This document shows positions 32,101 to 35,538 of a stretch of 36,115 nt of DNA, piece by piece. Under the pieces are notes generated by a model. The model searched no databases. It was not told where the DNA came from and worked only from the letters and a program-made list of their open reading frames with translations. Each line of letters begins with the position of its first letter. The stretch's first letter is position 1. The translations under genes and the position numbers were made by a program. The stretch is taken from positions 1 through 36,115 of the forward strand of contig JAAYMW010000154.1 of assembly GCA_012521175.1 (NCBI GenBank), in the 5' to 3' direction. The DNA comes from Candidatus Epulonipiscium sp. (GTDB lineage Bacteria > Bacillota > Clostridia > Lachnospirales > Defluviitaleaceae).

Positions 32101-32907
32101 TTATTCTATTCTAATTGACTCTATCAGCTCTTTGGTTTTTCTTTCCATTCTTTTTATTCTTTCTTCATCCTTAGGTTGTTTTGAATCCACTGCCACAATC
32201 TCTTTCTCCGGATAACGAAGGGCTGCTAACTTTCCGCCAAATACGCACCCTAAATCAATATCTAGGGTATTGTTAATCCATATTGGTTCACAGACAGGGG
32301 TATGACCATAAACAATCATAGCTCCCCCTCTATATTCCTTTGCCCAATCTCTTCTTACAGGATGCCCTTCTGCATCCTTTTCTCCTGTGATATCTCCATA
32401 GAGGCAAAATTTTTCGACCCTTCTGTCTTCCCTTCCAATAAGAGCTTCTTTAATCCCTGCATGGGCGACTACCAGCCTTCCTTCATCCAGAATCCAGTAA
32501 TAGGACTGTTGTTCATAAAACTTAACATATCTGTTCTTAAAAGCTTCTTGCTCTGATTTTGAAAGTTTTTCATATTCTTCTACTGTATTTTCAAGGCCAT
32601 GAGAGATTTGAACTTTTCTTCCCAATAAGTATCTATAAAATTTATTGCAATGATTGCCATAAACATATAATCCAAGACCTTTTTCAACCATATTCATAAT
32701 TAAATGGATGGTTTTTAAATTATCCGGTCCTCTGTCATTCAAATCTCCTATAGATACAATTTTTCTGCCTTTTGGATGAATGTATACGCCCCTTTCTTCA
32801 CGATAACCTAATTGGGTAATGAGTTGAACGAGTTCCTCATAACATCCATGAATGTCTCCAATAATATCAAACGGCCCTTTGTCCTTTATATGAAATTTTG
32901 CTCTCAT
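32101..32907 (-). CDS. Calcineurin-like metallophosphatase, PrpE/Pnkp-phosphatase-like
   Basis: FDIIGDIHGCYEEL, SIGDLNDRGPDN, VYGNHCNK, VVAHAGI, IVYGHTPV. Confidence 0.88.
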   Translation of the reverse strand: MRAKFHIKDKGPFDIIGDIHGCYEELVQLITQLGYREERGVYIHPKGRKIVSIGDLNDRGPDNLKTIHLIMNMVEKGLGLYVYGNHCNKFYRYLLGRKVQISHGLENTVEEYEKLSKSEQEAFKNRYVKFYEQQSYYWILDEGRLVVAHAGIKEALIGREDRRVEKFCLYGDITGEKDAEGHPVRRDWAKEYRGGAMIVYGHTPVCEPIWINNTLDIDLGCVFGGKLAALRYPEKEIVAVDSKQPKDEERIKRMERKTKELIESIRIE

Positions 32908-33081
32908 AGTCTCCCTCCTTTTTTATGCTGTATATTATAGATTTTACATTATCCCTTCAAAAAATCCATTTTTCCATATAAAAGCGAATACTATACATAG
33001 ACATTTATTACAAGAAATCTATTCAAAAGTATATAATTATTAAAATTTTACATCACTGTTTAACATAAATTTTTCATAAAT

Positions 33082-33214
33082 TGTGGATAGTTTTTCGTTT
33101 TATCCACACTATCCACAAAGTTATACACAGCTCTAAGTATTATTTTTCTGGACTTTTACCATTTTTCCACATAGTCCACAATCCCTATGTGTATATCAAT
33201 TTAATTGTGGATAG
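33082..33214. promoter_or_regulatory. Putative DnaA-box cluster
   Basis: Perfect TTATCCACA (33100-33108) and TTATACACA (33121-33129); CTATCCACA at 33109-33117(+), 33082-33090(-), 33206-33214(-); TTTTCCACA 33163-33171; ATATACACA 33188-33196(-); TAGTCCACA 33172-33180. Confidence 0.65.
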
Positions 33215-33319
33215 ATAGTCTTCTTAGTATACATAATTTTATCTTTTATAATGTTATAAAGCATAAAAGTATCTCATAAATTTATAAAGAAGGTATTAAA
33301 AACCGTAAGGAGGATCAAT

Positions 33320-33520
33320 ATGAATCATTTAAATCAAAATTCCTATGGACTCCAAGATATTCCTGAACCTTTCAGAGGACAAAACAAAAATTTAGGGAAT
33401 ACGGCTATAAATAATCAACCTGAATCTCAATCGACATCTGTAAGTGGTGCCAGTCGATTTCCTTTAGAAGATTTCCTTTTAATCCTACTTCTATTTTTAC
33501 TATTAACCGATTATAAATAA
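33320..33520 (+). CDS. Small protein with hydrophobic Leu-rich C-terminus
   Basis: 66 aa, RBS AAGGAGG, C-terminus FPLEDFLLILLLFLLLTDYK, followed by a terminator. Confidence 0.65.
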   Translation: MNHLNQNSYGLQDIPEPFRGQNKNLGNTAINNQPESQSTSVSGASRFPLEDFLLILLLFLLLTDYK

Positions 33521-33653: not shown

Positions 33654-33812
33654 ATGTCAACAGCTAAAGGATTCGGAAATTACAACATCATCTTTTTATT
33701 CTTCTTCTTATTATTATTCAACGAAGGCTTTGGATCTAAATTTGACAACTCTTTATTCTTCTTCTTATTAATATTCTTAATTTTATTTGGTGGATATGGA
33801 TTTGCTTACTAG
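33654..33812 (+). CDS. Phe/Leu-rich double-hydrophobic-segment microprotein (52 aa), putative sporulation protein
   Basis: MSTAKGFGNYNIIFLFFFLLLFNEGFGSKFDNSLFFFLLIFLILFGGYGFAY; RBS GAAAGGAGGT; terminator downstream; paralogous to 35335-35538. Not in the supplied ORF track (below the length cutoff). Confidence 0.8.
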   Translation: MSTAKGFGNYNIIFLFFFLLLFNEGFGSKFDNSLFFFLLIFLILFGGYGFAY

Positions 33813-33868: not shown

Positions 33869-35107
33869 TTATATTTCTCCAAATAGTTTTTGAACATCAA
33901 TGAGCCCCCATCCTTGTTGTTCCTGAGGGAACCTAAGGTCATTCGTACATCCCTTAAGGCGAAGTTTAATTTCATTAGGTGTTATATAGGGATATCTCTC
34001 CAGAAAAAGCGCTAATGCTCCTGATACCATGGGCGTTGCCATAGATGTACCACTTTTCTTTACATAATACGTCGTTAATGGGGTAGTAGGGTTTTTCCCA
34101 TCTTTGGGGATATATTTTGTGTCAGAAGCGCAGGACATAATATCAGAGCCTGGTGCCACCACATCCGGTTTTTTAATACAAGCTTTAGTAGGACCTCTAC
34201 CAGAATAGTTCGATATGATATCACCATGAATGTCTACACTTTTTTGATCATCCGATGCGCCGACTGTAATGACTTTCCTGCTGACTCCGGGGGATGTAAT
34301 ACTTTGCATTCTTGGCCCGTCATTCCCTGCCGCTACAAGCGTAACAATTCCCGCATCCCATGCTGCATTCACTGCCTTCACCAAAGGATCATTTTCACCT
34401 TCTCTGTCAGGACTTCCTATGGATAAATTCGCTACTTTTATATTATATCTATCTTTATTGTCAATCATCCATTGAATACCCGCCAGGACGTTGGATGTAC
34501 TGCCACTGCCTTTCTCATCTAATATTTTAATGCCTATTAAATTACATCCTGGTGCAATTCCTCTATACTGGCCATTGGATTTTGTACCGTCTCCTCCAAT
34601 AATTCCTGCCACATGGGTACCATGCCCATTATCATCATAGGGTTTTTCATATCCGTTTACAAAATCCTTAAAAGCAATAATTCTGTTTCTTGGATATAAA
34701 AAATCCTCATGAGGATAAATTCCTGAATCTAATACTGCAACCCCTATTCCTCTGCCCGAATACCCTCTCTGTTGGGCCCAATCTGCATGAATAACCTGTC
34801 TTGCAATGTCCATTTGTGCTGTTATGTGGGAATCCTGCTGTACCTTGCGCACCCCTTTTATCTGTCTTAATTTACCGAGATTTTCCTTTGGTATTTCTAC
34901 AACATATGAATTAATCATAGGAAGTCTGTATTTTACCTTTCCTAAACTACAAATTTGATGTTCTTCTTCATCATCCATGCTACATTCTACGATCACCTGA
35001 ACGGTTTCTTTAGACGAATCAACAGACTGAATGGGTTTGCCTTGTGGGGACTGTCTTCCTCTTTGGCTCATAATGCCTAACAAAAGTAATAACATAGACT
35101 TATCCAT
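33869..35107 (-). CDS. S8 family subtilisin-like serine protease (AprX-like)
   Basis: Catalytic triad motifs VAVLDSGIYPHEDF, NGHGTHVAGIIGG, KSGTSMATPMVSGALAL; inhibitor I9-like N-terminus. Confidence 0.95.
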   Translation of the reverse strand: MDKSMLLLLLGIMSQRGRQSPQGKPIQSVDSSKETVQVIVECSMDDEEEHQICSLGKVKYRLPMINSYVVEIPKENLGKLRQIKGVRKVQQDSHITAQMDIARQVIHADWAQQRGYSGRGIGVAVLDSGIYPHEDFLYPRNRIIAFKDFVNGYEKPYDDNGHGTHVAGIIGGDGTKSNGQYRGIAPGCNLIGIKILDEKGSGSTSNVLAGIQWMIDNKDRYNIKVANLSIGSPDREGENDPLVKAVNAAWDAGIVTLVAAGNDGPRMQSITSPGVSRKVITVGASDDQKSVDIHGDIISNYSGRGPTKACIKKPDVVAPGSDIMSCASDTKYIPKDGKNPTTPLTTYYVKKSGTSMATPMVSGALALFLERYPYITPNEIKLRLKGCTNDLRFPQEQQGWGLIDVQKLFGEI

Positions 35108-35334: not shown

Positions 35335-35538
35335 ATGGCAGAATCTAAATCTTACTTCGGTGGAAACTATGGTATTTTATTCTTGTTCTTCTTCTTGCTT
35401 CTTTTCAATAATGGCGGAATTTTCGGCTATGATAACAAAGGGCAAGGATGCTTTGGCGGTTTAGGAGAAAATTCTTTATTCTTCTTCTTAATCATCTTCT
35501 TAATTCTATTTGGCGGATTTGGCGGCGGAATTTGCTAA
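35335..35538 (+). CDS. Phe/Leu/Gly-rich double-hydrophobic-segment microprotein, putative sporulation protein
   Basis: MAESKSYFGGNYGILFLFFFLLLFNNGGIFGYDNKGQGCFGGLGENSLFFFLIIFLILFGGFGGGIC; RBS AGGGAGG; paralogous to 33654-33812. Confidence 0.82.
   Translation: MAESKSYFGGNYGILFLFFFLLLFNNGGIFGYDNKGQGCFGGLGENSLFFFLIIFLILFGGFGGGIC

Follow-up and report, generated by a model that had tools for sequence, protein, structure and literature searches.

A conserved cluster of DnaA boxes away from oriC lies upstream of a small-protein gene in a Clostridia lineage

Results

The window, a stretch of 36,115 nucleotides from Candidatus Epulonipiscium sp., contains an intergenic gap of 412 bp (32908-33319; 25% GC) in which sites resembling the box recognised by DnaA, the replication-starter protein, are densely packed. 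The gap separates two divergent genes. To its left, on the minus strand, lies a gene for a PrpE-like bis(5'-nucleosyl)-tetraphosphatase/metallophosphatase (32101-32907), which scored above the curated cut-off of NF010148. To its right, on the plus strand, an ORF (33320-33520) encodes a protein of 66 amino acids that includes YGLQDIPEPFRG, has a hydrophobic C-terminus (FLLILLLFLLL) and matched no family in Pfam or NCBIfam. Further to the right the window encodes two other small hydrophobic proteins (33654-33812 and 35335-35538; FLFFFLLLFN...SLFFFLLIFLILFGG), which had no NCBIfam match either, with a subtilase gene (33869-35107) near them. These two proteins seem to resemble the YjcZ-type sporulation proteins. 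A search of the window against Rfam matched no RNA element.

All seven of the family relatives that were examined have a matching gap; together with the genome of the window (G000) they give eight family genomes. The gap recurs in G014, a genome from another family of the order. Between 33082 and 33214 we counted seven sites with at most one mismatch from TTATNCACA, lying on both strands, and an eighth with two mismatches. Box 1 (CTATCCACA, 33082-33090, minus strand) is oriented opposite to boxes 2-6; it reads TGTGGATNN or carries one or two mismatches across the eight family genomes, and is perfect in G014. Box 2 (33100-33108, plus strand) is the perfect TTATCCACA, invariant in the family and in G014. 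Box 3 (CTATCCACA, 33109-33117, plus strand) abuts it in a 9-bp register, forming part of a 9-12 module, and appears as NNATCCACA or TTGTCCACA throughout the family. Twelve bp after box 3 comes box 4, the perfect TTATACACA (33121-33129, plus strand), which is TTATGCACA or TTATCCACA in the relatives and matches TTATNCACA in all eight family genomes and G014. Box 5 (TTTTCCACA, 33163-33171, plus strand) departs from the consensus yet is identical in 8/8 family genomes, and the weak box 6 (TAGTCCACA, two mismatches, 33172-33180, plus strand) abuts it, again in the 9-bp register. The weak box 7 (ATATACACA, 33188-33196, minus strand) is kept only within the genus, being TGTGTATAT or TGTGTATAA in G000-G003 and degraded in G004-G007. 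Box 8 (CTATCCACA on the minus strand, TGTGGATAG on the plus strand, 33206-33214) closes the cluster, and its TGTGGATA is invariant in the eight family genomes and in G014.

The first-pass annotation had listed all eight 9-mers, including the two perfect ones, with correct coordinates and strands, and had proposed density against background and conservation in relatives as checks on the cluster; both came out in its favour. Seven sites fall within 133 bp, against 0.19 expected from the genomic background, which we took as 1.39 sites per kb (at most one mismatch) from 160 kb sampled from G001, a complete genome of the same genus. The corresponding Poisson P is about 1e-9, for a place chosen beforehand and with this sampled background. 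No spot in the 160 kb held more than three sites, and 2000 Markov (dinucleotide) resamples of the 412-bp gap averaged 0.96 sites each and never exceeded six. The only perfect boxes in the 36-kb window are the two in the cluster.

All eight family genomes keep the cluster, as does G014. When the eight family genomes were aligned, 78% of the box columns were invariant, versus 23% of the columns in the spacers of the cluster and 4% of those in the flank at 32908-33019. Fisher's test for box against spacer columns gave P = 1.8e-10, an optimistic value since the test ignores the relatedness of the genomes (at the locus, G001 and G003 hardly differ). The contrast lies between neighbouring columns, which relatedness does not explain; the boxes are under selection. 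The arrangement of the boxes is conserved too: the spacing 0(-)/18/27/39(+) recurs in G014, where boxes lie at 1502-, 1520+, 1529+ and 1541+, followed by the last inverted box. A search of 392 genomes of the order with this four-box, fixed-spacing pattern found it in nine (reversed control, none), and eight of the nine matches, including that in G014, are the locus of the window cluster. In G004 the locus is present with a spacer one base shorter. A three-mismatch match in G053 was set aside as another locus; there, at L074:1501-1530, a 9/12 triple of DnaA boxes stands before an isocitrate dehydrogenase-like gene, in a genome with no Spo0A match. Left of box 1 there is also an AT-rich conserved flank (33020-33081), with 52% of its columns invariant versus 4% further left. 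Within it, at 33054-33074, TTTAACATAA is invariant in the family and is replaced by TTTTACATAA in G014; a similar ACATAA stands to the right of the cluster.

The window holds no dnaA, as had been noted from its sequence, and belongs to contig C199 of a draft that is 78.7% complete, the dnaA of which is on contig C68. The position of the locus could be read from G001 (3,014,560 bp), in which dnaA is at 1,912,981 and the gap matching that of the window is at 1,426,233-1,426,647, 487 kb away. Between 0.45 and 1.80 Mb the sampled GC skew of G001 is negative, and from 1.95 Mb around the circle to 0.30 Mb it is positive, indicating an origin at dnaA and a terminus near 0.3-0.45 Mb; the skew shows no change at the locus of the cluster. 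Consistent with this, the preferred orientation of TTATCCACA flips at dnaA (22:7 vs 8:34, P = 2e-6). Taken together, the position of dnaA, the skew and the strand flip place the cluster 487 kb, or 32%, down the left arm. The earlier proposal to look for dnaA and the skew change was thus answered by an origin at about 1.91 Mb, away from the locus, and the suggestion of a leftward-moving fork held, the leftward genes beside the cluster being co-directional with the fork of the left arm. The oriC region has about a dozen boxes upstream of dnaA, and in the dnaA-dnaN gap of G001 a DnaA-trio follows the boxes (CCACAGGTACTATTACTATAGCTACTC); the same search of 32908-33319 in the window found no trio. 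The box motif is common to the window cluster and to oriC, both in its own genome and in G001, but oriC has many perfect boxes, with the trio in G001, whereas the cluster has two perfect boxes and no trio.

The 66-aa gene is the likely regulated neighbour. Every family genome has a homolog of it downstream of the boxes, and so does G014, where the protein has diverged to 40% identity. prpE, on the other hand, is missing from the locus in G005, G007 and G014, all of which keep the cluster and the small gene, so the cluster is independent of prpE. It seems, then, that the cluster travels with the 66-aa gene, although synteny may carry part of this linkage, since the neighbourhood is syntenic as a whole and a zinc-ribbon gene on the left is likewise kept. 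The linkage is limited to the lineage: G617, from another family of the class, has a weak homolog of the small protein with no boxes upstream. Another weak match, in G161, was rejected as it contains three stops and adjoins groES/groEL-like genes. Downstream of box 8, at a distance of 17-18 bp, there is a candidate -10 element on the plus strand (CATAAT, 33232-33237). All eight family genomes keep its CATAA, and G014 has it equally far from the last TGTGGATA. A consensus scan read the promoter-like TGGATA-18-CATAAT at 33208-33237. The scan, for promoters and intrinsic terminators, found nothing above shuffled sequences, so that the promoter call comes from conservation. With CATAA as the -10, the candidate -35 of the small gene would lie partly under box 8, and DnaA could gate this promoter directly.

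Searches with box-pair patterns, for which reversed controls returned 0-1 hits per genome (direct pairs) or 0-3 per strand (inverted pairs), revealed about five conserved clusters outside oriC in each genome, at 10-37% of the replichore. In G001 the sister clusters lie beside pepF (2,064.7 kb), between murC and a dnaD-dnaI operon encoding a DnaD domain and a DnaC/DnaI-type ATPase (2,164.8 kb), beside a GntR gene (2,418.9 kb) and beside a gene for a UPF0016-like membrane protein (2,478.1 kb), which had no NCBIfam match; we take the names pepF, murC and UPF0016 from recognition of the sequences. The pepF cluster (L038:2733-2815 and L045:2747-2800) consists of four to five head-to-tail boxes in steps of 11-12 bp, is conserved in the family and has an unknown 230-aa gene as its other neighbour. 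The cluster between murC and dnaD-dnaI is double, its two TTATCCACATTATCCACA tandems lying some 165 bp from each other (L039:3773-4080 in G001, L002:3518-3790 in G000), is found also in G014 and G035, and raises the possibility of DnaA feedback on the helicase-loader genes. The GntR cluster (L041:2868-2990, L046:2763-2885, L053:2384-2507) keeps its spacing of 40-12-9-53 in G005, and essentially in G006, even though the neighbour on its other side differs between genera. In G001 it is 506 kb to the right of oriC and thus almost mirrors the position of the window cluster on the left. A common module links several of these sites: TTATCCACA-NTATCCACA-NNN-box, with its 9-bp and 12-bp registers, occurs in the window cluster and in both dnaD subclusters (its third box being degenerate in the one on the murC side), and the GntR cluster has the same triple in reverse order.

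Discussion

The cluster described here is densely packed, lies away from oriC and dnaA (on a separate contig in G000) and shows selective conservation of its boxes, all features of non-oriC DnaA-box clusters of the B. subtilis type. It is real, conserved and functional-looking. By analogy with B. subtilis, it is probably a non-origin DnaA-box cluster that regulates the 66-aa gene and secondarily titrates DnaA; of the two roles we favour regulation of the small gene, which titration would accompany. In favour of this reading are the density of the boxes, the selection that preserves them at fixed spacing, the location off oriC, the sister clusters and the retention of the cluster with the small gene where prpE is missing. 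DnaA would bind cooperatively to the head-to-tail core of boxes 2-4, in its 9-bp and 12-bp registers, and from there spread over the weaker flanking boxes, a scheme we propose because of the analogy with the B. subtilis clusters. The bound protein could then modulate the promoter of the 66-aa gene through the last box, which overlaps the candidate -35, while the site would sequester DnaA as a secondary effect; its copy number would double once the left fork had covered about a third of the arm. Three parts of this scheme are inferred: that DnaA binds, which way it regulates, and that the site titrates it.

The same observations could be read in other ways. That the site is a pure sink for DnaA, having no role in the transcription of either neighbour and sitting in a promoter gap by accident, is in our judgement rather unlikely, yet it is the most probable of the alternatives: about five conserved clusters per genome at 10-37% of the replichore would suit a sink, as would the GntR cluster, which holds its box spacing while the gene on one side changes. 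In B. subtilis, moreover, deletion of the DnaA-box clusters leads to early initiation, strongly only with all six gone (PMC5295017). Against a sink stand boxes that end 17-18 bp from a conserved CATAA, and clusters that precede genes, dnaD-dnaI included, with one downstream gene kept in two families. An element resembling DARS or datA, altering the nucleotide state of DnaA through the fixed core of boxes 2-4, is an improbable reading. It would fit the rigid 9/12-bp triple, seen at the window cluster, twice upstream of dnaD and reversed beside GntR, and the three-box core common to DARS1 and DARS2 and the same-direction boxes of datA (PMC5742627), but B. subtilis has no datA, DARS or IHF (PMC13220808), and an IHF-like site cannot be assumed here.

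A main role in regulating the divergent prpE is more improbable still; the cluster does lie upstream of this gene in G000-G004 and G006, but it persists where the gene is gone from the locus, both within the family (G005, G007) and outside it (G014). The first-pass annotation had left the choice between a titrating or regulatory cluster and a relocated origin element, and the two halves of that proposal fared differently. The former is supported: the boxes are conserved, each genome has several such clusters, and the site is promoter-proximal. The latter, a replication origin or a relocated or secondary origin element, would draw on the dense boxes, the AT-rich flanks and the leftward genes to the left, but a full oriC sits elsewhere, with dnaA on C68 and at 1.913 Mb in G001. 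With dnaA, skew, strand bias and trio all pointing to 1.91 Mb, and the gap lacking a trio, we reject an origin here as extremely improbable. Least credible is a chance build-up of 9-mers in AT-rich intergenic DNA, of which the probability is negligible: the resamples never reached the count, and conservation of boxes over spacers already refutes it.

The Sda family (Pfam PF08970) was absent from the nine genomes searched, and the 66-aa protein, with no match in Pfam or NCBIfam, was rejected as a member of it; Spo0A_C, by contrast with Sda, was found in all nine genomes carrying the cluster and the small gene. The presence of Spo0A, the absence of Sda and the YjcZ-like neighbours make a developmental role conceivable, and an Sda-like role in a replication checkpoint is possible. 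As a long shot, the cluster might turn the small membrane-type protein of this Clostridia lineage, which has Spo0A and lacks Sda, into a DnaA-controlled reporter of replication status, an Sda analogue of unrelated origin; the rigid 9/12 module, which the dnaD-dnaI cluster has too, would then serve as a lineage-specific platform for an ATP-DnaA oligomer.

Clusters of DnaA boxes outside oriC are understood from work on B. subtilis, E. coli and Streptomyces. The present one is of a known kind; new are its hosts, its target gene and the box module that recurs. A literature search among open-licence papers found no report of a non-oriC DnaA-box cluster in Clostridia. The roughly five conserved clusters, some with a common module and one tied to an uncharacterised small gene, offer a concrete and testable candidate DnaA regulon for a Clostridia group. 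They may also connect replication with development in spore-formers without Sda.

Of the known systems, the E. coli elements datA, DARS1 and DARS2 resemble the cluster in being groups of boxes off oriC, the core boxes sharing one direction in datA and forming a fixed set of three in DARS; the likeness is one of box layout, and the IHF-dependent mechanism of the E. coli elements cannot be assumed. The B. subtilis clusters, six of which were reportedly described by Okumura in 2012, are closer. B. subtilis has six clusters outside oriC, without which initiation comes early (PMC5295017, PMC13220808). Eight main regions are bound by DnaA in that species, among them the one with the promoter of sda, a small gene, and the clusters lie at ywcI/vpr, gcp/ydiF, trmE, ywlC, yqeG/sda and yydA (PMC4447404). 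As there, dense boxes occupy gene gaps away from dnaA, several times per genome, in a spore-former lineage of the Bacillota, and it is plausible that they likewise act through sequestration of DnaA, through transcription or both. The loci differ, being here the 66-aa gene, dnaD-dnaI, GntR, pepF and the UPF0016-like gene. The yqeG-sda cluster offers a further parallel, since there too the boxes occupy a gap ahead of a small-protein gene in a spore-forming lineage, although the 66-aa protein is not Sda, having a hydrophobic C-terminus and standing beside YjcZ-like small proteins.
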